DNA of 64,000 bases from Myxococcota bacterium (lineage in GTDB: Bacteria; Myxococcota_A; Bradymonadia; UBA7976; UBA1532). Shown piece after piece: positions 14,289-45,474 of the stretch. The DNA is taken from NCBI GenBank assembly GCA_963169045.1, contig CAUJDF010000044.1, forward strand, positions 434,001 through 498,000. Direction: 5' to 3'. Below the pieces are notes generated by a model, which had not been told where the DNA came from, made no database searches, and saw only the letters and a list, made by a program, of their open reading frames with translations. Made by a program: the position numbers and the translations under genes. Each line of letters begins with the position of its first letter. Position 1 is the first letter of the stretch.

Positions 14289-14933
14289 GTGGGACTTGAG
14301 CACACAACCCCTCCCCTGCTCGTCCTGCTGCTCGCGGGCTGCGGATCCCTGGTGCGTCCGTCGGAGCTGCGCCCGGCGCTCCATCCGCTCCTCGAGGGGT
14401 CCGCCACGGCGCGGCCGGCGGCGCTTCCACCCGAGCGCGATGAGGCGTCGAGCGGCACCGATGCCGATTCCGAACTGGCGGCACAGCGCCGGGCGCTGAT
14501 CCAGCGGGCGCTCCAGGCGCTCGACGGCAAACGAGGGCTCGACGGTGACGCGGCGCTCGTGAGGGCAGCGTTCGCCGAAACGCGCCTCGACGCCGCGCCG
14601 GACGCATTCGCCTCGGTGCAGACCCTTCGCGAGCGCTCGCGCCCACGGCGCGGACGGCCGAGACCGGCGGACCTCGTCTTCTTCGCCGGCGTGGACTTCG
14701 GCCCGCGGGTGGGCCTCGTCACCCGCGTCCTGCGAGGCGGCGTCGTCGAGGCGATGTTCATCGCCCGTGGCGCCGTCCGACGCATCCGCTTCGACGTGCG
14801 CCGGCCCGACGAGCGCCGCGTCGACGGCAACATCGTCAACACGTTCGTCCGACCGAAGCGTCGGGACGATCCGCCGGGCACGGCCTACCTCGCCGGTCAG
14901 CTCGTCGACTCGGTCCGCACCCTGCTCGACTGA
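14289..14933 (+). CDS. Lipoprotein with possible NlpC/P60-like C-terminus
   Basis: 214 aa from GTG at 14289, chosen because it places a lipobox (LVLLLAGC) right after the start. A longer open frame extends to 14172 but its leader is not signal-like. The C-terminal part, RPADLVFFAGVDFGPRVGLVTRV, recalls the NlpC/P60 or CHAP core where the family has GDLVFF then HVGIV; here the His position is Arg and no catalytic Cys precedes it. It is therefore perhaps a non-catalytic cell-wall-binding relative. Its 3-prime end overlaps the convergent anti-sigma-like gene by 37 nt. Confidence 0.65.
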   Translation: MGLEHTTPPLLVLLLAGCGSLVRPSELRPALHPLLEGSATARPAALPPERDEASSGTDADSELAAQRRALIQRALQALDGKRGLDGDAALVRAAFAETRLDAAPDAFASVQTLRERSRPRRGRPRPADLVFFAGVDFGPRVGLVTRVLRGGVVEAMFIARGAVRRIRFDVRRPDERRVDGNIVNTFVRPKRRDDPPGTAYLAGQLVDSVRTLLD

Positions 14934-15868
14934 AGGGCGAGCCGCAGCGCGCGCTGTCGCGGCAGTGACAGCTGATGCTCGACGAGCGCCGAGTTCAGGG
15001 CGCACGCGGCGTCCGCGTGCGTCCGCACGGCGGGGGTCAGGCGCTGCCCGGCGGCTTCGAAGTGCGCCTGGCACAGGTTGAAATGCACGATCGCGTCCGC
15101 TCCGTCGCCGGCGAGGCACGCCTCGAGCGCCGGAATCGCCTCGAGCGGGCGCCCGCCGACGATCGCCGGCAGCGTGGCGAGGCAGATCCGAGCGATCCGC
15201 GCGAGGTCCGGCGCGGCGTCGGCGGCGACGCGCCCGAAGCGCTCGGCTGCCCGCGCCTCGTCGCCCGCCTTGATCCAGGCGAGGCCCTGGTAGAACGCGG
15301 CCTTGGGCGCGAGCGCCGGCGCCGCCCGCGCGACCGCTTCCATGCCGGCGACGAGCTCCGCCAGCCGGTCGCGGTCGATCGCGGGCGGCTCGAGGCGGCG
15401 GGCGAGATCGCCGAGGTCGACGCCCTCCAGCTCGTCGGCGTCGTACCAGTCGCGCATCTCGCCGACCATGTCCGAGGCGCGCCGGCGTTCGCCGAGGGGG
15501 TCGTCGATGGCCGCCTCGCGCGCATCGACGTCATCGCCGTAGTCGAAGAGGAACTCGGCCTTGAGCACCTCGTAGAGCAGCGCGCCGAGCGCGTTCAGGT
15601 CTGCGCTCCGCAATCGCGTCGAGAGGGCGTCGAAGTCGGGGACGTCGCCCCGCCGGCCGCCGTCGTCGAGCTCGAAGGGCGCCTCCCGTACCCACCGGTG
15701 CATCACGAGCTGCGTGCGCAGCGATTGGTAGAAGCGGGCACAGCCGGCGCAGCCGCGGAAGTGGGCGTGCACGCCCTCGGCGCGCAGCGTGTCGAGCTCG
15801 CCGTCGAGCAGCCCGATCACGTCGGCCTCGACCTGTTTGCAGCTCAGCCGCGCCGCGTCTGCGTCCAT
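14897..15868 (-). CDS. Zinc-finger anti-sigma-like protein
   Basis: 323 aa. Near the N-terminus is a putative zinc-finger of anti-sigma type (zf-HC2): LSCKQVEADVIGLLDGELD, then HAHFRGCAGCARFYQ, i.e. Cys ... HxxxCxxC. The remaining ~250 residues are helical and TPR-like (AFYQGLAWIKAGDEARAAERF, IVHFNLCQAHFEAAG). There is no clear transmembrane helix, so it would be a soluble anti-sigma factor. It lies 48 nt downstream of a sigma-70 family gene on the same strand, which supports the pairing. Direct binding is inferred. Confidence 0.75.
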   Translation of the reverse strand: MDADAARLSCKQVEADVIGLLDGELDTLRAEGVHAHFRGCAGCARFYQSLRTQLVMHRWVREAPFELDDGGRRGDVPDFDALSTRLRSADLNALGALLYEVLKAEFLFDYGDDVDAREAAIDDPLGERRRASDMVGEMRDWYDADELEGVDLGDLARRLEPPAIDRDRLAELVAGMEAVARAAPALAPKAAFYQGLAWIKAGDEARAAERFGRVAADAAPDLARIARICLATLPAIVGGRPLEAIPALEACLAGDGADAIVHFNLCQAHFEAAGQRLTPAVRTHADAACALNSALVEHQLSLPRQRALRLALQSSRVRTESTS

Positions 15869-15916: not shown

Positions 15917-16885
15917 TCAGCAGGCGTGCTCGGCCCCGTGCAGGCGGTGGCGGACGAGGCAGGCGGGACAGGGTCCGTCGCCCACCGCGGCCGACCAGGT
16001 CAACAGGTTCAGGCGCACGTGCTTGTCGGCCCGGAGCGCGTGGAAACCGCGATGGCCGGCGGCCCCCTCGAGGTCGCGGAGGAGCGGCGTGAAGGCGCGG
16101 TCGCGAAGCAATCGCGCGCGGCGGATCACGTTGCCGACGTCGGTCCGGCTCAGCCCGAGGCGCTCGGCCACCTCGTCGTAGCTGCGCCCTTCGACCTCGA
16201 CGAGGATCAGCGCGGCGCGCTCGCGGGGCGGCACGGCGTTGGAGGCCGCGAAGACAGCGTCGCGCAGCCGCCACGCCAGCGTGAGGCGCTCACGATTCTC
16301 GATGTCGGCTTCGGGGCTGATGCTCAGCCCGCCGCCGCCGAGCCACGGCGCCCACGTTGCGGCAGGCGGGGTCTCCTCGGGAAGCTCGCCGATGTCGGGG
16401 CGGCGACGCCGAAGGTGGTCGATGGCGCGATGGTCGGCGATGGACAGCAGCAGGGCGTAGCGGAGGGAGTGCTGCGCCCGGCGACCTTCGCGCAGCAGGC
16501 GCTGGATGGCGACCGCCGCGGACGACACCACGTCGGCGACCTCCTCCGGCCCGGCGCCGACGGAGGCCAGCCGTCGGCGTGCGCGCGCCGCCAGCCGCGG
16601 CCCGAGCACCGCGAACACGAAGGTGGCGAGCGGCTCGGCGCGGTAGCCGAGATCGAGGCAACGGTTGAGGATGCGCTCGAACGTCTCCACCGTGTCGACC
16701 GTGGCTTCGTCGTTGAGGGCGCGGCGCAGGATGGCTCGCACCGTGCGGCGCCGTAACGTCCGCTCCTCGTCGTCGTCGGCGCGGCGGAGGCGCGCGTCGA
16801 GCTCAGCCAGGAAGCGTAGCAGCGCAGTCCGCACGAGCAGCGGTCGCCCCGGGTCCGGCGCGTGGGTGGCGGAGAGGGCGATCAT
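15917..16885 (-). CDS. Sigma-70 family (ECF-like) RNA polymerase sigma factor
   Basis: 322 aa from ATG at 16885, preceded by a perfect GGAGGT five bases upstream. Region 2 lies around LRYALLLSIADHRAIDHLRRRRP; region 4 has AVPPRERAALILVEVEGRSY and DEVAERLGLSRTDVGNVIRRAR, a normal helix-turn-helix. There is a long N-terminal segment (~100 aa) and an unusual tail with CPACLVRHRLHGAEHAC, whose Cys/His spacing could bind zinc. Its ATGA start overlaps the stop of the MYXO-CTERM gene, and a zinc-finger anti-sigma-like gene follows. It probably directs transcription of a surface or stress regulon; target promoters are unknown. Confidence 0.85.
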   Translation of the reverse strand: MIALSATHAPDPGRPLLVRTALLRFLAELDARLRRADDDEERTLRRRTVRAILRRALNDEATVDTVETFERILNRCLDLGYRAEPLATFVFAVLGPRLAARARRRLASVGAGPEEVADVVSSAAVAIQRLLREGRRAQHSLRYALLLSIADHRAIDHLRRRRPDIGELPEETPPAATWAPWLGGGGLSISPEADIENRERLTLAWRLRDAVFAASNAVPPRERAALILVEVEGRSYDEVAERLGLSRTDVGNVIRRARLLRDRAFTPLLRDLEGAAGHRGFHALRADKHVRLNLLTWSAAVGDGPCPACLVRHRLHGAEHAC

Positions 16886-17587: not shown

Positions 17588-18049
17588 TCAGCGCAGGGCG
17601 CCGAGCAGGCGGGCCGCGGCGGGCCCTCGCGCGGCGAGCGAGGCGCGCCGGCCATCGCCCTGGTTCGTGATGCGCAGGGCCAGGACGTCGCGAGGCAGGA
17701 CATCCGGCAGGCGATCGGGCCACTCGACGAGCGCGACGCCGTCGGTGCCGAGCACCTCCTCGAGGCCGAGGCCGAGCGCCTCGTCCGGGTCCGACAGGCG
17801 GTAGAGGTCGACGTGGTAGAACGGCACTCGACCGGGGTGGATCAGGAGGATCGCGAAGGACGGACTGTTCACGTAATGACCGGGTGGGACCTCGAGCCCG
17901 ACGGCGACCCCCTGGGCCAGCGTCGTCTTGCCGGCGCCGAGCGTGCCCTCGACGGCGATCACGTCGCCAGCGCGAGCGTGCCGGCCGATGCGTTCGCCGA
18001 AGGCGCGCGTCGCGTCGGCGTCGGGCAGGAACACCTCGAGATCACTCAC
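17588..18049 (-). CDS. tsaE: tRNA threonylcarbamoyladenosine synthesis ATPase TsaE
   Basis: 153 aa from GTG at 18049. The P-loop ATPase of the t6A machinery (with TsaB and TsaD), which drives turnover of the modifying complex. The Walker A is GTLGAGKTT, followed by TLAQGVAVGL and the family block NSPSFAILLIH. PFYHVDLYRLSDPDEA carries the hallmark HxDxYRL, and LVEWPDRLPDVLP matches the VEWPER motif. It overlaps the Nudix gene upstream by four bases (GTGA). tsaC, the other t6A gene here, lies at 32.4 kb. Confidence 0.93.
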   Translation of the reverse strand: MSDLEVFLPDADATRAFGERIGRHARAGDVIAVEGTLGAGKTTLAQGVAVGLEVPPGHYVNSPSFAILLIHPGRVPFYHVDLYRLSDPDEALGLGLEEVLGTDGVALVEWPDRLPDVLPRDVLALRITNQGDGRRASLAARGPAAARLLGALR

Positions 18050-18456
18050 GTCGTGCCCACCTCTCGTCGCAGTCGCGCCATGGCGGGGCGGTCGGCGGGC
18101 GGCAGATCCAGGGTCGCCAGCTCGGCGACCGTCATCCACCGCCACTCCGCCACCTGCAGACACTGCGGCGTCCCGCCGCGCAACACGCAGCGATACACCA
18201 GCAGCAGGACCTCGCGCTCGGCCTGCAGGTCGTGACCCACGGCGAAGATGTCGCCCACCTCGACGTCGACCCCGAGCTCCTCGAGGAGCTCGCGTCGGAG
18301 GGCATCGTCCGGGGGCTCGCCGGGCTCGACCTTGCCGCCGGGGAACTCCCAGTGGCCGGCGAGGTGCGTGCCTCGGGGGCGGCGGGCGACGAGGAAGCGG
18401 CCATCCGGGGCGCCGGCGGCCGAGATGAGGCCGCCGACCACGACGAGGCGCTTCAA
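18046..18456 (-). CDS. Nudix hydrolase, MutT-type (putative 8-oxo-dGTP diphosphatase)
   Basis: 136 aa. The Nudix box is complete: GGKVEPGEPPDDALRRELLE followed by ELG (GX5EX7REUXEEXGU). RPRGTHLAGHWEFPGGK is the pattern of the MutT subfamily that removes oxidised dGTP, and DLQAEREVLLLVYRC and EWRWMTVAEL match the family C-terminus. It is translationally coupled to tsaE. MutT-like specificity is an inference from the WEFPGGK motif. Confidence 0.85.
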   Translation of the reverse strand: MKRLVVVGGLISAAGAPDGRFLVARRPRGTHLAGHWEFPGGKVEPGEPPDDALRRELLEELGVDVEVGDIFAVGHDLQAEREVLLLVYRCVLRGGTPQCLQVAEWRWMTVAELATLDLPPADRPAMARLRREVGTT

Positions 18457-18463
18457 CGCGGGC

Positions 18464-18757
18464 TCAGCGGAGGAAGCCGGTGCGCGAGGGCGTCGTGTCG
18501 CCCCGATCGCTGACCTTCACGCCGGCGATCGACTCGATGGGCAGGAGCCAGGTGCCGTCCTGCGTGATGACGGAGACGTACTCGTCGTGCACGCGCACCT
18601 CGCGCACTTTCGGGAGGGGCGAGGCCGAGCCGCTGCCGCCGCGCTGGAGCAGCTCGAGCCGGCGGTTCTCGGACACGACGTAGCGGTCCTCGTGGCGCTC
18701 GAGCCCCTCGACGGCGCCGAGCATCTTGGTGAGCAATTCACGGGTCATGTGGGCCAT
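18464..18757 (-). CDS. Small conserved-looking protein, unknown function
   Basis: 97 aa from ATG at 18757 (MAHMTREL). The frame is open further upstream, but this start lies 10 nt after the stop of the Cys-rich lipoprotein gene and avoids overlap. It has no signal peptide. A C-terminal beta-rich segment HDEYVSVITQDGTWLLP, then IESIAGVKV, may form a small Sm/SH3-like barrel. No family is recognised. Confidence 0.6.
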   Translation of the reverse strand: MAHMTRELLTKMLGAVEGLERHEDRYVVSENRRLELLQRGGSGSASPLPKVREVRVHDEYVSVITQDGTWLLPIESIAGVKVSDRGDTTPSRTGFLR

Positions 18758-18767
18758 CTCGTCCCCT

Positions 18768-20129
18768 TCACTGAACGGGGGTCTGGTCACAGCGTCGGAT
18801 GCAGAGGCGGTCGGTGACGTTGCCGTTCTCGTCCTGAAGCTCTTCGCAGCCGTACCCCTGCGGGCACTCGTTGGGCGAAGGCTGGCAGGCCTCGAAGCAG
18901 AAGTCGCCGAGGGCGTTGCCGTCCTGGTCCTGGAGGCTCAAGCAGCGCGCCGGCGCGCCGCCGCAGGCGTCCTCGGCCATCGGGTCGCAGCCGGCCTCGC
19001 AGTGGCGACCCGGCGCGGGGACGCAGTCGCCGGTCTCGAGCTGACAGACCTCGCCGAACGCGCACTGGTAGTTGGCGGCGCAGCCGCGCGGTCGGCAGCG
19101 GCCGGCGTCGCAGGCCTTGGTGGCGTCCAGGCAGTCCTCGTCGCGCTCGCAGCCGGGGACGCAGCGGTTCGTCGTCAGGTCGCAGTGCGTTTCGGGCATG
19201 CCGCAGTCGCGGCTCGTGACGCAGCCGCCGGGGATGCGGCAGTGCCCATCGGGCTGGCACTCGCCGCCCGCGGGGCAGTCGCCGTTGCCCGCGCACCTCG
19301 GACGGCAGCGCAGGTTCTCGCAGACGAGGCCCTCGGCGCAGCCCGTGTCGTTCTCGCAGCCACGCTGGCAGTAGAGCTGCTCGTTGCAGAAGTGCGCGCC
19401 GGGGCAGTCCGCGTCGGCGGCGCAGTCGCCTGGGCGGCTGCACTCGCCGCCGCGGGGGACGCACGCCCTCTGGTCGGGCATCACCTCGACGCACTCGTAG
19501 CCCGGTCCGAGGCGGCCGCACTCGACCTCGCCCGCGCAGGCGCGGAGGCAGTAAGGCAGGCCGGCGCGGCCCACGGGCGCGCACACGTCGTTGCGGCGCT
19601 CGCACGCGGCGGAGTCTGCGCAGCGACCGCAGGGTTGGACCCGTGGACGGCAGTGGCCGGTGCACGCGTCGCAGTAGTCGGAGGTCGCGCACTGCAGGTC
19701 GCGCTGGCAGGGGCTCCCCGCGGCGGCCTCGCACAGGCCGCGGCACGTACAGGTCGCCCCGGCGGCGCACGCCCCGTCGGGACCACAAGCCGGGAGCGGC
19801 ACGCAAAAGCCTTGCGGACCGCAGGTCGCGCGATCGCCGCAATCGAGGTCGACGCGACATCCCGGCCGGCAATCCCCCGCCGCGACATCGCAGCGGGCGC
19901 CGCCGAGGCAGTCGTCGTCGGACAGGCAGGCCGGCGACATGCCGCCGCCCGCGCCACCGGCGCCGCCGCCGCCCGCGCCACCGGCGCCGCCCGCGCCACC
20001 GGCGCCGCCCGCGCCACCGGCGCCGCCGCCCGCGCCACCGGCGCCGCCACCGCCCCCCTCGCCCCCCCCTCCGCCGTCACTGCAGGCGAGGAAGAGCAGC
20101 ACCGCCGCCAGGTACGCGTAATTCTTCAT
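18768..20129 (-). CDS. Cys-rich lipoprotein with poly-Gly/Ala linker
   Basis: 453 aa. Lipobox at the very N-terminus: YLAAVLLFLACSDGG, so Cys16 is acylated. A ~45-residue tract made only of Gly and Ala follows. The rest has about 60 cysteines in repeating units of the form CxxDxDCxxGxxCxxxxxxC (DDDCLGGARC, DEDCLDATKAC, NDTGCAEGLVC), like EGF- or Dickkopf-type disulphide modules of myxobacterial surface proteins. It is probably an outer-membrane lipoprotein displayed at the surface and dependent on oxidative folding. Ligand unknown. Confidence 0.82.
   Translation of the reverse strand: MKNYAYLAAVLLFLACSDGGGGGEGGGGGAGGAGGGAGGAGGAGGAGGAGGAGGGGAGGAGGGMSPACLSDDDCLGGARCDVAAGDCRPGCRVDLDCGDRATCGPQGFCVPLPACGPDGACAAGATCTCRGLCEAAAGSPCQRDLQCATSDYCDACTGHCRPRVQPCGRCADSAACERRNDVCAPVGRAGLPYCLRACAGEVECGRLGPGYECVEVMPDQRACVPRGGECSRPGDCAADADCPGAHFCNEQLYCQRGCENDTGCAEGLVCENLRCRPRCAGNGDCPAGGECQPDGHCRIPGGCVTSRDCGMPETHCDLTTNRCVPGCERDEDCLDATKACDAGRCRPRGCAANYQCAFGEVCQLETGDCVPAPGRHCEAGCDPMAEDACGGAPARCLSLQDQDGNALGDFCFEACQPSPNECPQGYGCEELQDENGNVTDRLCIRRCDQTPVQ
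19941..20084. repeat. Short tandem repeats encoding Gly/Ala linker
   Basis: A 9-bp unit GCGCCACCG alternating with GCGCCGCCC and related GCCGCC blocks, repeated about a dozen times. On the minus strand it encodes the GGAGGAGG linker behind the lipidated Cys of the Cys-rich lipoprotein. Such a tract is prone to copy-number change in frame. Confidence 0.8.
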
Positions 20130-20151: not shown

Positions 20152-22125
20152 TCACTTCTGAAACGAGAACGGCAGGCTCACGGTGAGGTTCGTGCCATCG
20201 AACGGCGGCACCTTCAGCCCCGCCAGCGCGGCGCGCACGCAAGCGTTGCCGGCGGAGCTGCCGTCGCCGAGGCGAACATTGATGAGGTCGCCGCGCGGAA
20301 TCACCGTCACCTTGACCTCGAGGCTCTTGAGGCTGGGATCGCGGCGGACCTCGTCCTGCAGGCACCGCGTCAGCTGCTGGTTGCGGCGCGCCACGGCGGC
20401 GTCGAACGACGGCCGGTCGAAGCGGCGGCCCCCGTCGCGCGCGTTGAGGTCGACCACGGCGCTCTCGTTGGCGAGGCGCTCCTCTTCGGCCAACTGCGCC
20501 GCCGCGCGCGCGGCCTCGACCCGCTGGCGCTGCTGCGTGGCGACGGCGACGGCGGCGCGGCGCTTCTCCTCGACCTCGGCCGGGGTCTCCGGCAGCTCCT
20601 CGGGGAGGTTCACCGCCGGCAGCGCCGTCTGGATCCGCGTCACCAGCGTCGGCAGGTAGGCCTTGACCGGCTCGGGGCGCGTCGCGCGGTACCAGGCGTA
20701 GCCGCCTCCGGTGCCGCCGACGACGAGCAGCGTACCGAGCACGGTGCCGAGCACGATGCGCTTGCGGCGGCGGGCAGCGCCTCGCGCCGCCTCCTCGGCC
20801 TGGCGCTTCTGACGCTCCGCCTTTTCGTGGCCCCAGGCCACGAGCGTCTCGTCGAAGACGTTGAACTCGGAGAGCGGCGCGCGGCGATCCTGCTCGATGT
20901 CGTAGAGCGTCGCGTCGGCGTTCAGCTCCTCCTTGAAGAGCTGCTCGATGACCTGCTTCGTCGAGTAGGGGCCGTAGTCGATGCCGTCGCGCTCGATGAG
21001 CCAGCGCTGGGCGGTGCCGTCGTCGTCGCTGGCCGCGACGGAGGGCTTCAGCTCGGGAATGACGAAGCCGCCGTCGTCGGCGCGCTTGCGGGCAGGCGCC
21101 TCGGCCTTGCGCGGCGCAGCCTTGCCCGGCGGCGCCGGCGCGGCCTTCGGGGGCGCGCCGGAGGCGGCCCCGAGGACCTCCTCGACCATCTCGACGGAGG
21201 CGCCCGGCGTGAGGTCCCGCTCGTCAAGCCCCGCGCCGCGCGCGGCTTCGATCACCTCGAGCAGCGCCGTCTTGAGCTCGTTCGGGTCGCGGAAACGCTG
21301 GGCCTCGTCGTCGGCGAAGCAGCGGTCGAGGATGGTGGCGAGCGCCGCCGGCAGGCGACGGGCGACCGGCTCGGGCAACGTCGGCGACGCCTGCTTCGGC
21401 GGCGCGCCGGCGAGGAGCTCGAAGAGGATCGTGCCCAGCGCGCGCAGATCGTCGACGACGGACGGGCCCTCATCGCCCGCGGGCACCGAGCCGGGCGGCA
21501 GGCAGGCCGCGTCCCAGCGCGAGAGCGCCTCGCGCTGGGCCATGAGCGACGCCCGCAGCTCGCCCAGCCCGAAGTCGGCCACCTTCACGCGACCGGTGCG
21601 GTTGATGAGCACGCAGGAGGGCCGCAGCGTGCCGTGGGGCATCGACGCGCGGGCGTGCTGCAGCGCGTTGCACACATGGGCGACCAGGTTGTAGGCGCCC
21701 TTCAGCGTGAACGCCTTGCCTGCGTCGGCCTTCTTCTCGAGCAGCTCGGAGAGGGTCTGACCGTCGACGTACTCGCGGGCGAGGTAGCGACGGCGCCCCT
21801 CCTTGCCCATGCCGTAGACCGCCACGATGTTCTTGTGCGCCAGCTCGGTGGCGGCCTTCACGCTGCGGCGGAGGCGCTCCGTGGCGGCGGCGTCGCCGGC
21901 AGCCTCGGCGGCGAACATGAGGATGGCGATCTTCTTGCCACTGCGATCGTCGACGGCGCGATAGATCGTGCCGAGGGCGTCCTCGCGCAGGCGCTCGTCG
22001 ACGACGAAGCGGCTGCCGACGGTGTCGCCCTGCTTGAGGCGCACCGGCCCGGACGGCTCGGCCCCCCCCGGCCCGGCCTCGGCCTCGGCATCGGAGACCG
22101 ACGGGTTGGCGGTGTCCACGGACAC
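20152..22125 (-). CDS. Pseudokinase-GYF-transmembrane-AgmX/TonB-like protein
   Basis: 657 aa. Residues ~35-290 follow a Hanks-type Ser/Thr kinase fold, but the catalytic residues are gone: the VAIK Lys is Leu69, HRDLKPxN reads HGTLRPSC (164-171), and the glycine loop is REDALGT. Only DFG (184-186) remains. Residues ~374-425 look like a GYF_2 domain (RDGIDYGPYSTKQVIEQL). A membrane helix spans ~456-479 (IVLGTVLGTLLVVGG). The last ~80 residues match the AgmX/PglI or TonB C-terminal type (VKVTVIPRGDLINVRL, CVRAALAGLKVPPF). It is probably a scaffold in the inner membrane reaching the periplasm. It starts a leftward gene series and is oppositely placed to no known substrate gene. Confidence 0.82.
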   Translation of the reverse strand: MSVDTANPSVSDAEAEAGPGGAEPSGPVRLKQGDTVGSRFVVDERLREDALGTIYRAVDDRSGKKIAILMFAAEAAGDAAATERLRRSVKAATELAHKNIVAVYGMGKEGRRRYLAREYVDGQTLSELLEKKADAGKAFTLKGAYNLVAHVCNALQHARASMPHGTLRPSCVLINRTGRVKVADFGLGELRASLMAQREALSRWDAACLPPGSVPAGDEGPSVVDDLRALGTILFELLAGAPPKQASPTLPEPVARRLPAALATILDRCFADDEAQRFRDPNELKTALLEVIEAARGAGLDERDLTPGASVEMVEEVLGAASGAPPKAAPAPPGKAAPRKAEAPARKRADDGGFVIPELKPSVAASDDDGTAQRWLIERDGIDYGPYSTKQVIEQLFKEELNADATLYDIEQDRRAPLSEFNVFDETLVAWGHEKAERQKRQAEEAARGAARRRKRIVLGTVLGTLLVVGGTGGGYAWYRATRPEPVKAYLPTLVTRIQTALPAVNLPEELPETPAEVEEKRRAAVAVATQQRQRVEAARAAAQLAEEERLANESAVVDLNARDGGRRFDRPSFDAAVARRNQQLTRCLQDEVRRDPSLKSLEVKVTVIPRGDLINVRLGDGSSAGNACVRAALAGLKVPPFDGTNLTVSLPFSFQK

Positions 22126-22201: not shown

Positions 22202-22624
22202 TCAGCTGCCAGCGGCGCCGGGGGACGTGAAGAGGTCGATGCGCCAGTCCCCGCCGACGCGCACCACCGACAGGCGGACCTCGCGACCGGCAAGCGGCGC
22301 GATGACGACGTGGCGGTCTTCGCTCGAGAGGGCCACGTCGATGCGGGCCTTGCGCGGGAAGTCGAGCTCGAGCTCGGCGCCCGGACGGACCGCGAGCCGC
22401 TCGCGTACGACGTCGGCGGCGGCGTCCGGCGCGAGCCCCAGCTTCTGGGTGAGGACCTCGCGGCTCCGGGGCGCGAGCAGCGTCCACACCGCGTCGGCGC
22501 GGCCCGCGCGCACCGCGGCGACGAACTGTTCATAGGCCACGATGGCCGGATCCTTGCGGGGCGGACCGCAGCCGGCCAGTCCGGCGGCGAGGACGAGGCC
22601 GCACGTGAGCGTGAGCGTTTTCAT
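22202..22624 (-). CDS. Lipoprotein, possible NTF2/DUF4878-like fold
   Basis: 140 aa with lipobox LAAGLAGC. The mature part has YEQFVAAVRAGRADAVWTLL near the N-terminus and VRVGGDWRIDLF at the end. This helix-then-sheet order is typical of small SnoaL/NTF2-like lipoproteins. A start one codon upstream (22627) is possible. The divergent neighbour at 22756 has the same architecture, so the two may be paralogues from an inverted duplication; this is inference. Confidence 0.7.
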   Translation of the reverse strand: MKTLTLTCGLVLAAGLAGCGPPRKDPAIVAYEQFVAAVRAGRADAVWTLLAPRSREVLTQKLGLAPDAAADVVRERLAVRPGAELELDFPRKARIDVALSSEDRHVVIAPLAGREVRLSVVRVGGDWRIDLFTSPGAAGS

Positions 22625-43122: not shown

Positions 43123-43841
43123 GTCGCGCTCCGCGCCAGCAGGTCCTTCAGGCTCTCTGGCGGCAGGACGAGGTGACGGTCGGGCGGATCACCGGGCACC
43201 CGCACTCCGACGACCGCCACCACGCTGCCGTCGGGGGCCACGAGCGGGGTGCCCGGTGGCTGCGGCCAGCCCTCGGCGATCCAGTACCAGGCCTGCGCCT
43301 CCTCGCCGCGCGCGCGGACCAGGAGCGGTCTCAGGGGTGCGTGCGGCGCGGACACGCCGTACAGGGTTCGCCCCGCATCGAGCCGGACGTCGGCGTTGAT
43401 GGGCGCTTCGACGACGGGGACGAGGCCCGGGACGTCGAGCACCGCCAACCCGATCTTGGGATCGTCGAGCCCGACGGCCGCGGGGCGCCAGGTGCCATCG
43501 GCGCCGCGGATCTCGATCACGTCGCCCTCGCCGGCGGGCCAGCCGTCGACGATGACATGTGCCGTGACCACACGACCGGGCGCGATGACCCAGCCGGTGC
43601 CCTCCACGCGCAGGCCGCCCGGCACGGTGATGCCCGGCGGCGGCGGCAGGAGCCGTCGCACCTCGACGACCACCGCGGCGAGACGCGCGCGGACGGCGTC
43701 CCGTCCCGCCTGCGTCACGAGGTCGAGCGGACCCTGCATCACGACCGGGGCAGCGTCGACGCCCGCGTCGGCCGCGCGCGCCACGAGCGGCGCGCACGCC
43801 GCCAGCAGCGACCCGATTTGCACCGCGCGGTGCAACAACAT
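43110..43841 (-). CDS. Trypsin-like (S1C) protease homologue without catalytic Asp and Ser
   Basis: 243 aa with a signal peptide (MLLHRAVQIGSLLAACAPLVARA). The chymotrypsin-like fold is recognisable: GTGWVIAPGRVVTAHVIVDG carries the catalytic His, but the Asp position reads PKIGLAVLDV (Gly) and the nucleophile motif GNSGGPLV reads PPGTPLV (Pro for Ser). It has no PDZ domain. It is therefore probably a periplasmic binding protein with a protease fold. It overlaps tilS at its 3-prime end. Confidence 0.72.
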   Translation of the reverse strand: MLLHRAVQIGSLLAACAPLVARAADAGVDAAPVVMQGPLDLVTQAGRDAVRARLAAVVVEVRRLLPPPPGITVPGGLRVEGTGWVIAPGRVVTAHVIVDGWPAGEGDVIEIRGADGTWRPAAVGLDDPKIGLAVLDVPGLVPVVEAPINADVRLDAGRTLYGVSAPHAPLRPLLVRARGEEAQAWYWIAEGWPQPPGTPLVAPDGSVVAVVGVRVPGDPPDRHLVLPPESLKDLLARSATWRP

Positions 43842-44163
43842 GCACTCCAGCTCGTGGCGTCCCCGTGGAAAACTCTCCAGCCGCGTCGAAAAGTTCCGAT
43901 CGCCCGACGAAACGGCGGGAACTTCCAGCGGCGCACGATGTCCCTTCCGGGTAGCACCGCGACGAGCTCAAAGGTGCCGCCCGCCGGGGGTCGGGTCAAT
44001 GACCCGGTCGCCCGGGATCGGTGTTCGGAGAGCACGCGGACGGTCCTTGACCGGCCAATTCGCGCAGGGCTACCCTACCGCGACCTTGCGGTCGCAATTC
44101 GTCCGGTGGGGGGCCCTTGCCTCGGCCGTACAACGGCGGCATCGGCTGCCGGAGGTTGGGAAC
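43842..44163. other. Intergenic region, divergent, no gene seen
   Basis: A 322-nt stretch between the protease-like gene (leftward) and the AgmX-type gene (rightward). Apart from the promoter candidate at 44047-44076 and the ribosome site GGAGG at 44151-44155 region, no small reading frame with a good start or RNA structure stands out. Confidence 0.5.
44047..44076 (+). promoter_or_regulatory. Candidate sigma-70 promoter
   Basis: TTGACC (44047-44052), an 18-bp spacer and TACCCT (44071-44076), about 90 bases before the TTG start of the AgmX-type gene. The -10 keeps T1, A2 and T6 only. Read by eye. Confidence 0.4.
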
Positions 44164-45474
44164 TTGAGTTCGGAGAAGCTGACGAACCTGCGCGTGGCCG
44201 TGCTCTGGCACGACGCCATCGTCGTCGAAAAGGTCATTCCCAAGGGGAAGCCGGTCACGATCGGCGAGGGCCTCGAGAACACTCTCGTGCTGCCCGATGC
44301 CGCCGGCATCGGCGAGAAGTACCAGCTCTTCTCGCCCAGCGGCGACGGGTACACGGTCCACCTCACCCCGGCGATGAAGGGGCGCATGCGCCACGACGCC
44401 GAGGAGACGACCGTCGAGGCCGTGCGCAAGAAGAAGGGCAACGAGGTTCGGGTCGACGGCCACGACTGGGGCGTGATCGACCTCGGACCCATCGGCATCT
44501 TCTTCCAGTTCGTCGGCGAGTCCGAGCGCCTGCCGCGCAAGCCGATCTGGCTGAGCATGGAGACCGCCGCCCTTGGCGCGCTGCTCACGGCGCTCGTGCT
44601 GCACCTCGGCGGCCTCATCGCCTCCTTCCTCATGTGGGAGGAAGAGCCGAGGTACGAGGACCTCACGACCGCCGAGCGCCTCGTCCAGTTCCTCGCCGAG
44701 AAGCCGCCGCCCGAGATCAAGGAAGAAGAGCAGGAAGAGAAGGACGAGGACGTCGGCAAGAAGGCCGGCGGCGAGGAGGGCAAGTTCGGCCAGGAGGACA
44801 AGAAGGACGAGTCCAAGGTGCCCAAGCGCGATGGCCAGATGGTCGACAAGATCAAGGACATCGGCGTGCACAAGGTCCTCACGTCCAACCTGGTCGGCAC
44901 GGGCCCGCTGAAGAACGTCTTCAGCGACAAGAGCAGCTTCGACAGCAAGCTGAACGCGGCGATGAGCGGCGTCGCCGACGGCGATCTCGTGATCGGCCAC
45001 GGCGCCGGCGGCATGGGCCTCCGCGGCACCGGCGAGGGTGGCGGCGGCGAGGGCTTCGGCCGCATCCACGGCATGGGCCGCATCGACACCGGCGGCGGCC
45101 GCGGCACGAAGGCGAGCCTCGGCGGCAAGGCCAAGGCGAAGGCCACCGCGCGCACCTCCGTCGGCGCAGGCAGCATCGCCGGTTTCTGCAAGGAGGCCGA
45201 CATCCAGCGCGTCGTGAACGCGCGCCGCTCCGGCATCTCGTACTGCTACGAGAAGGAGCTCGCCCGCAATCCCGAGCTGGGCGGCAAGGTCACGCTGAAC
45301 TGGCGCATCGGCCTCGACGGCAAAGTGATGAAGGTGATCGTCGAGAGCAGCACCCTCGGCAACAAGGACGTCGAGGGTTGCATGATCCGCAACGTCGAGC
45401 GCTGGACCTTCCCGAAGCCGGAAGGCGGCATGTGCCAGATCAAGTACCCGTTCGTGTTCAACCCCGGCCTCTGA
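44164..45474 (+). CDS. AgmX/PglI-type TonB-like envelope protein
   Basis: 436 aa from TTG at 44164, which has GGAGG eight bases upstream. N-terminal ~115 residues form a beta-rich domain (GKPVTIGEGLENTLVLPDA), FHA-like in arrangement. A membrane helix follows at ~130-158 (LGALLTALVLHLGGLIASFL). Next come an acidic/Lys stretch (KEEEQEEKDEDVGKK) and a Gly-rich region (GHGAGGMGLRGTGEGGGGEG). The last ~95 residues match the AgmX/PglI C-terminal domain (RSGISYCYEKELARNPELGG, VTLNWRIGLDGKV, VERWTFPKPEGG). The order is that of Myxococcus adventurous-gliding AgmX/GltJ-type proteins. It likely spans the inner membrane and periplasm; a motility role is inferred only. Confidence 0.82.
   Translation: MSSEKLTNLRVAVLWHDAIVVEKVIPKGKPVTIGEGLENTLVLPDAAGIGEKYQLFSPSGDGYTVHLTPAMKGRMRHDAEETTVEAVRKKKGNEVRVDGHDWGVIDLGPIGIFFQFVGESERLPRKPIWLSMETAALGALLTALVLHLGGLIASFLMWEEEPRYEDLTTAERLVQFLAEKPPPEIKEEEQEEKDEDVGKKAGGEEGKFGQEDKKDESKVPKRDGQMVDKIKDIGVHKVLTSNLVGTGPLKNVFSDKSSFDSKLNAAMSGVADGDLVIGHGAGGMGLRGTGEGGGGEGFGRIHGMGRIDTGGGRGTKASLGGKAKAKATARTSVGAGSIAGFCKEADIQRVVNARRSGISYCYEKELARNPELGGKVTLNWRIGLDGKVMKVIVESSTLGNKDVEGCMIRNVERWTFPKPEGGMCQIKYPFVFNPGL

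Follow-up and report, generated by a model that had tools for sequence, protein, structure and literature searches.

A single-copy pseudokinase protein of the Bradymonadia with a GYF-like domain, a membrane helix and an AgmX/TonB-like tail

What can a kinase-like domain do in a membrane protein once the residues of its active site have been replaced? This question is raised by a gene lying at 20152-22125, on the minus strand, of a 64,000-nucleotide stretch of a Myxococcota bacterium contig (hereafter the window), where a preliminary description made from the letters alone had correctly placed it. The gene starts with GTG and encodes 657 aa. The proposed architecture, a pseudokinase followed by a GYF-like domain, a membrane helix and an AgmX/TonB-like periplasmic domain, is borne out by alignment, structural models and relatives, the order in the protein being pseudokinase, linker, GYF-like domain, one membrane helix and TonB/TolA-like tail. 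The features of the locus are listed below, with window coordinates, strand and, in brackets, the evidence.

20152..22125 (-): whole gene, encoding pseudokinase, linker, GYF-like domain, membrane helix and AgmX/TonB-like tail (ORF, AlphaFold model, alignment)
21235..22035 (-): pseudokinase domain, residues 31-297 (Pfam Pkinase, PknI structural match)
21919..21921 (-): site of the VAIK lysine, occupied by Leu69 (alignment with 7 active kinases from its own genome)
21601..21636 (-): ex-catalytic loop HGTLRPSCVLIN, residues 164-175, with Thr166 for the HRD Asp and Cys171 for the Asn (alignment)
21568..21576 (-): DFG motif, kept, residues 184-186 (alignment)
21025..21234 (-): Pro/Ala-rich disordered linker with conserved GGFVIPEL at its end (pLDDT, identity among 11 family members)
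20866..21021 (-): GYF-like domain, residues 369-420, containing DGIDYGPY (Foldseek 7z3c, VIA Z 5.8-7.3 to GYF domains, GYF_2 in relatives)
20701..20757 (-): membrane helix core, about residues 457-475 (top hydropathy window; ARRRKR on its N side)
20455..20583 (-): predicted periplasmic helix, residues 515-557 (AlphaFold models)
20155..20427 (-): AgmX/PglI (TonB/TolA-like) tail, residues 567-657, with Cys588 and Cys629 (NF033768, TonB/TolA C-terminal domain matches, cysteine count)
18768..20129 (-): downstream Cys-rich lipoprotein gene, lipobox FLAC, candidate partner in some lineages (gene order, weak Myxo_Cys_RPT)
18467..18757 (-): small conserved protein with no assigned family (conserved gene order)
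18049..18459 (-): NUDIX (MutT-like) gene, part of the conserved order
17591..18052 (-): tsaE, syntenic anchor (near the gene in 23/39 loci)
22205..22624 (-): upstream small lipoprotein gene on the same strand (conserved in 7/10 family-1 loci and both family-2 loci)

Loss of the catalytic residues in the kinase-like domain

The Pkinase profile of Pfam, the first check that had been suggested, matches the N-terminal domain of the window protein with an E of 1.7e-18. In an AlphaFold model built from 32 homologues (mean pLDDT 81.6, mostly >90 in the kinase part), VIA matches residues 28-292 to M. tuberculosis PknI (Z 27.8, with an rmsd of 2.2 for 243 residues), and Foldseek matches this part to Stk1, PknB and PknA; PknI, PknA and PknB are thus structural matches of the model, with Z about 27. 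The window protein was aligned with seven kinases from its own genome in which VAIK, HRD and DFG or DWG are intact. It has Leu69 at the position of the VAIK lysine, Thr166 at that of the HRD aspartate and Cys171 at that of the catalytic-loop asparagine, and an intact DFG (residues 184-186, with Asp184), which confirms what had been read from the sequence. Its Gly-rich loop and APE motif are likewise degraded. It had been envisaged that the catalytic residues could be hidden in unrecognised insertions; the alignment does not bear this out, as the motif columns are gap-free and the loop, HGTLRPSCVLIN, contains no acid.

The 53 proteins collected from the class were aligned with the same seven active kinases, and counts are given over 52 of them, as one (L186, 418 aa) has no kinase part. 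The HRD aspartate is present in 0/52 class members, as compared with 7/7 active controls; acids occur in 12 of the 52 loops, none of them at this position. It is also missing from the relatives outside this set (0/8) and from an overlapping set composed of 32 homologues and the window protein (0/32), in which L125 is the single row where VAIK lysine and DFG aspartate coexist. The other residues are lost differently from one family to another. In families 1 and 2, which form the clade of the window protein (13 genomes), the DFG aspartate is kept in 13/13 and the VAIK lysine in 0/13, whereas the remaining 39 class members have no DFG aspartate (0/39; 38 Asn, 1 His) and mostly keep the lysine (35/39, that is 5/5 in family 3, 4/8 in family 4, 1/1 in family 5, 20/20 in family 6 and 5/5 in family 7). 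Lysine and asparagine are both kept in 27/52 class members, lysine and DFG aspartate together in 0/52, and lysine, loop asparagine and DFG aspartate all three in 0/52. The family is thus predicted, from its sequences, to consist of pseudokinases. As the HRD aspartate is missing throughout while the losses of the lysine and of the DFG aspartate differ by family, what the family shares, on these alignments, is that the catalytic base is gone; the remainder of the active site has apparently decayed along two routes.

The domain is, to judge from its conservation, under constraint even though its catalytic residues are gone: the mean identity among 11 family members is 0.73 from the hinge to alphaE and 0.70 from the ex-catalytic loop to DFG, as compared with 0.25 in the linker. 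In a maximum-likelihood tree of 67 kinase domains, a split with 100/99 support separates all pseudokinases from the seven active controls. The class members cluster mostly by family, two label changes being needed; ext_L196 forms a very long branch. This topology suggests one ancient loss of the catalytic base followed by vertical descent, a single origin that falls short of proof because the tree includes only seven active kinases, all from this genome.

Linker, GYF-like domain and AgmX/TonB-like tail

The linker is predicted to be disordered, with a pLDDT <50 for residues 309-366 of the AlphaFold model, and it ends with a segment, FVIPEL, whose identity among the 11 family members reaches 0.79 as compared with 0.25 for the linker itself. 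In the domains that follow, Pfam reports neither GYF_2 (PF14237; no row at E up to 1 in the window protein, the gathering score being 25.8 bits) nor TonB_C, which is unrecognised in 24/25 members, so that both assignments rest on relatives and folds. GYF_2 matches 11/25 relatives at E up to 1, with a best E of 0.0014. As VIA on the whole model returned the kinase part only, a second AlphaFold model was made of the C-terminal 291 residues (pLDDT 88.1). The second Foldseek hit of this model is the solved GYF domain of M. xanthus GltJ (7z3c; prob 1.00, 22% identity, 2.2 Å), and VIA gives Z 5.8-7.5 to GYF-like domains (for 7ruq_C, Z 7.3 and rmsd 2.5 over 57). The VIA Z values for the GYF and TonB/TolA parts are modest and were weighed together with the sequence evidence; solved structures searched with the C-terminal profile yielded chance-level matches only. 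The GYF_2-type domain initially proposed thus stands as a GYF fold, on the match to 7z3c and on the relatives, but not as a Pfam GYF_2 call.

The binding of phospho- or Pro-rich ligands by the protein, as initially suggested, is hypothetical. PPPGY-type motifs are known ligands of GYF domains. The linker of the protein itself was considered as such a ligand and rejected, as PPG is found in 10/52 linkers for 6.1 expected, a fraction of 0.118 of 500 shuffles reaching the number of hits, and PPG[FWYML] in the linkers of 0 of the 52 proteins. PP[AP]P is the only one of five patterns above shuffles (12 hits, 3.6 expected, 0/500 shuffles); this excess, in a pattern picked after the fact, would reflect proline runs. 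Separately, a pseudokinase of the same type at L143:9947-11371 is followed by many PPPGY repeats, until the contig edge.

One membrane helix is found near residues 457-475, the top hydropathy window, and is preceded by ARRRKR. This positive flank on the N side of the helix would make the kinase and GYF parts cytoplasmic and the tail periplasmic. The tail matches NF033768 (AgmX/PglI) with an E of 1.8e-7 and 31.2 bits, under the 40-bit cut-off, and this model is matched by 25/25 relatives at E up to 0.01. TonB/TolA domains lead the matches of residues 200-291 of the C-terminal model, with a VIA Z of only about 5 and a best Foldseek E of 7.4e-3. The TonB-like periplasmic tail of the preliminary description is thus retained on its sub-threshold similarity to AgmX/PglI and on weak matches to the TonB/TolA fold, and not as a Pfam TonB_C domain. 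While its fold may resemble that of TonB/TolA C-terminal domains, the tail differs from them by its sequence and by two invariant cysteines, Cys588 and Cys629, which are present in 37/37 sequences. The C-terminal alignment excludes L125 (which ends at its contig), L143 and L144; two proteins, L017 and L115, were N-terminally trimmed. A periplasmic disulfide between Cys588 and Cys629 would fit this invariance and is probably formed.

Distribution of the family and its gene neighbourhood

A search with the C-terminal profile over 57 Bradymonadia genomes found exactly one copy in 53 of them, and in all 29 genomes with a completeness of 90% or more and a contamination of 5% or less; the genomes without a match (G003, G010, G015 and G050) are 77-89% complete. 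The domain arrangement is not due to chance, since it is single-copy in 53/57 genomes of the class. This class, whose members are described as facultative prey-dependent predators (PMC11509652), includes Bradymonas and Lujinxingia, and the C-terminal part of the Lujinxingia vulgaris TMQ2 copy (L134:9833-11830) is 96% identical to that of the G029 copy. L186 (G021:C203) is the sole class copy lacking the kinase part, and its GYF-membrane-tail part is intact.

Outside the class, 14 matches were obtained in 140 genomes drawn from the phylum, and architectures were counted for 10 of these 14. Four of the ten (L193-L196) have the same four-part order, with pseudokinases devoid of the HRD aspartate. 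The other six are kinase-less, in frames of about 300-360 residues that contain the GYF domain, the membrane helix and the tail only. The named loci L120, L121, L123 and L125, also outside the class, carry the pseudokinase as well, L125 being cut by its contig. The survey that had been called for therefore finds the same order both in the class and beyond it: the four-part order is real, but less unusual than first thought, as it characterises a family conserved in more than one class. As six of the ten out-of-class homologues are kinase-less, the membrane part can work without the kinase domain. The pseudokinase may have been added to a pre-existing GYF-membrane-tail protein before the classes diverged, or else some lineages have lost it. 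A search near the kinase-less homologues found neither tsaE nor any kinase-like match, and a weak Cys-rich match in L142 only. In G121, no kinase was detected by a motif search over 2.3 kb, although both other carriers in its family have the fusion; this record may be broken or incomplete.

In the window, the genes follow each other on the same strand in the order small lipoprotein, pseudokinase gene, Cys-rich lipoprotein, small protein, NUDIX and tsaE. The Cys-rich lipoprotein gene, which has a lipobox and a weak Myxo_Cys_RPT repeat (E 0.011), begins 22 bases downstream of the pseudokinase gene. A Cys-rich homologue lies directly downstream in 6/8 evaluable family-1 loci (the window being counted; it is missing in L047 and L050), in 2/2 family-2 loci and in 3/3 family-7 loci. 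In family 6, the largest family of the class, it is absent and tsaE comes after the gene. This lipoprotein, initially suggested as the outer partner of the protein, thus adjoins the gene in families 1, 2 and 7 but cannot be a universal partner, since it is absent from the family-6 loci; it is a candidate partner in part of the class. tsaE is near the pseudokinase gene in 23/39 searched loci, a set that includes a few second records of one genome, and it is absent from the sequence examined for the family-2 and family-5 loci. Weak Bud32 matches beside tsaE were set aside as general kinase similarity. On the minus strand of the window, a gene for a Sigma-70-like factor (Pfam region 4) adjoins one for a zf-HC2 putative anti-sigma protein (14900-15868 and 15920-16885), a pair that is conserved near the locus in several family-1 genomes.

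The same genome contains 68 other matches to the window protein, mostly over the kinase part, and, at E up to 0.001, 20 matches to the AgmX/PglI tail domain. Such a tail also occurs elsewhere in the window, in the protein encoded at 43177-45471 (+), where it is strong (45193-45462, 111 bits). This protein resembles GltG/PglI; a region before its membrane segment reads as FHA-like, and Pfam on 44125-45468 gave no family. At least three further proteins, L151 (G000:C44:620365-621852), L152/L069 (C58) and L154/L073 (C69), are composed of a GYF domain, a membrane segment and an AgmX tail, and two of them (L151 and L152) start, like GltJ, with a zinc ribbon. Another kinase-GYF fusion, L037 (C58:11185-12498), combines a kinase that appears to be active with a GYF-like segment behind it and then an additional C-terminal region.

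Proposed role of the protein and its alternatives

The membrane part is reminiscent of GltJ/AgmX of M. xanthus gliding, which likewise has a GYF fold, a single membrane helix and an AgmX C-terminal domain. GltJ binds MglA/AglZ and is an effector of MglA. In the GltJ-like proteins that this genome encodes, the N-terminus is a zinc ribbon and extended Pro-rich stretches are present, whereas the window protein has an N-terminal pseudokinase. GltG/PglI also combines a cytoplasmic recognition domain, one membrane helix and a TonB-like tail, with an FHA domain (PMC3169522) instead of a pseudokinase and a GYF domain, and M. xanthus GltG and GltJ have both been described as TolA/TonB-like, with one membrane helix and TonB-C motifs (PMC5349195). 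The GYF-like domain also drew attention to Bd0075 of Bdellovibrio, which was rejected as a relative as its periplasmic part is TPR (PMC12034629). The GltJ equivalog NF033761 gives 16.1 bits on the window protein for a whole-protein cut-off of 450.

As to the pseudokinase, EssB/YukC of type VII secretion is a protein of Firmicutes that is not known to have a GYF domain or a TonB-like tail, and no secretion-system genes were noticed around the window gene. Like the window protein, it has an N-terminal pseudokinase, with all catalytic motifs degraded, and one membrane helix, and its role is in assembly, without catalysis (PMC12599244). MviN/ActPs3 of mycobacteria is likewise a membrane protein whose pseudokinase serves as a recruitment platform, for FhaA upon phosphorylation by PknB (PMC12599244), but it is an actinobacterial protein with another membrane part, another domain order and other motifs kept. 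The window protein would thus work like GltJ or EssB without being assigned to either family, given its GltJ score and a likeness to EssB that is one of description. No protein of this kind is described in the literature searched outside subscription journals (pseudokinase with GYF, and GYF with TonB, kinase or Myxococc), nor does the main text of a 2025 review of bacterial pseudokinase families contain GYF, TonB or Myxococc (PMC12599244); a pseudokinase family in a GltJ-like frame is so far undescribed in these sources.

The loss of the catalytic machinery, together with the near-universal retention of one copy, indicates that the protein is probably a physical connector and not an enzyme. 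By analogy with the GltJ/GltG-type membrane design, and with EssB/YukC and MviN as membrane pseudokinase platforms, we propose that it is a docking adaptor, and consider it rather likely that it is a non-catalytic inner-membrane protein serving cytosolic and envelope partners. The pseudokinase and the GYF-like domain would be the cytoplasmic docking surfaces for the cytosolic partners; the membrane helix and the periplasmic helix would carry the TonB/TolA-like tail toward the peptidoglycan or the outer membrane; and the tail, probably closed by its disulfide, would engage an envelope protein, in some lineages maybe the adjoining Cys-rich lipoprotein. The protein could operate in the manner of Myxococcus GltJ, with the zinc-ribbon input swapped for a pseudokinase, or alternatively in that of EssB/YukC, as a membrane pseudokinase assembling an envelope machine. 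A link between cytoplasm and envelope without phosphorylation, as first put forward, is what this layout suits.

Other roles have to be weighed against this adaptor. The protein could truly belong to a gliding or force-transmitting motor of the Agl-Glt type, as a lineage-specific GltJ whose tail contacts outer-membrane proteins under a TolQR-like channel, as would fit the match to the GltJ GYF fold and the fact that the GltJ model touches 17/25 members. We nevertheless hold this to be unlikely, as the score of the window protein is far under the GltJ cut-off, the same genome has separate zinc-ribbon-GYF-membrane-tail proteins resembling GltJ proper (L151, L152), no agl or glt genes were seen in the conserved neighbourhood, and the motility reported for Bradymonadia is T4P-mediated S-motility, in an article whose main text does not contain the word gliding (PMC11509652). 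A regulated phospho-acceptor, in which an active kinase would phosphorylate the linker or the pseudokinase and an FHA protein would then be recruited to the membrane, has the precedent of MviN and FhaA after PknB phosphorylation (PMC12599244), and the long disordered linker, the 68 other matches in the genome, mostly over the kinase part, and the AgmX-tailed protein of the window, FHA-like by reading and with no Pfam match in the scanned part, could provide its elements. The low identity of the linker (0.25), in which no conserved phosphosite was identified, and the conserved neighbourhood, in which no FHA gene was noticed, make this equally improbable.

An enzyme of the SelO type needs the lysine, the loop asparagine and the DFG aspartate. 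That another activity is kept by the family, be it SelO-like AMPylation, glutamylation or other, is very unlikely: lysine and DFG aspartate never occur together in the 52 class members, the window protein lacks lysine, asparagine, Gly-rich loop and any acid in the catalytic loop, and the acids of the 12 loops that have one sit away from the HRD position, even if lysine and asparagine subsist in 27/52 members and SelO, whose loop is of the HG type, and SidJ are pseudokinases with new activities (PMC12599244). A role connected with the adjoining housekeeping genes mutT and tsaE is scarcely credible despite the proximity of tsaE in 23/39 loci, since a stable locus inherited vertically would fit the gene order, TsaE takes part in tRNA modification in the cytosol, and tsaE was not found in the family-2 and family-5 sequence examined.

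The docking adaptor can be extended, tentatively, to a more ambitious reading, which is possible without being likely. The protein would belong to a core envelope-spanning machine of this whole predatory class, recurring elsewhere in the phylum, with the pseudokinase as its cytoplasmic input. The catalytic base would have been lost once, at the origin, and what was left of the active site would then have been taken apart in two lineages along complementary lines, the DFG aspartate surviving in one and the VAIK lysine in the other, only the docking surface being selected. Rather than serving gliding, the machine would be of general use, tethering the cytoplasm to the outer membrane or passing force between them, and might be essential.

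A role is known for only a few bacterial pseudokinases, and the main text of the 2025 review (PMC12599244) names none that carries GYF or TonB-like domains. The one described here is single-copy and near-universal in a class that has cultured members (Bradymonas, Lujinxingia), and lies inside a protein predicted to span the envelope. GltJ-type membrane design appears to accept varied input domains, zinc ribbon, FHA or pseudokinase, and the pattern of catalysis loss makes the notion of a dead kinase as a pure docking domain testable by genetics and binding assays.
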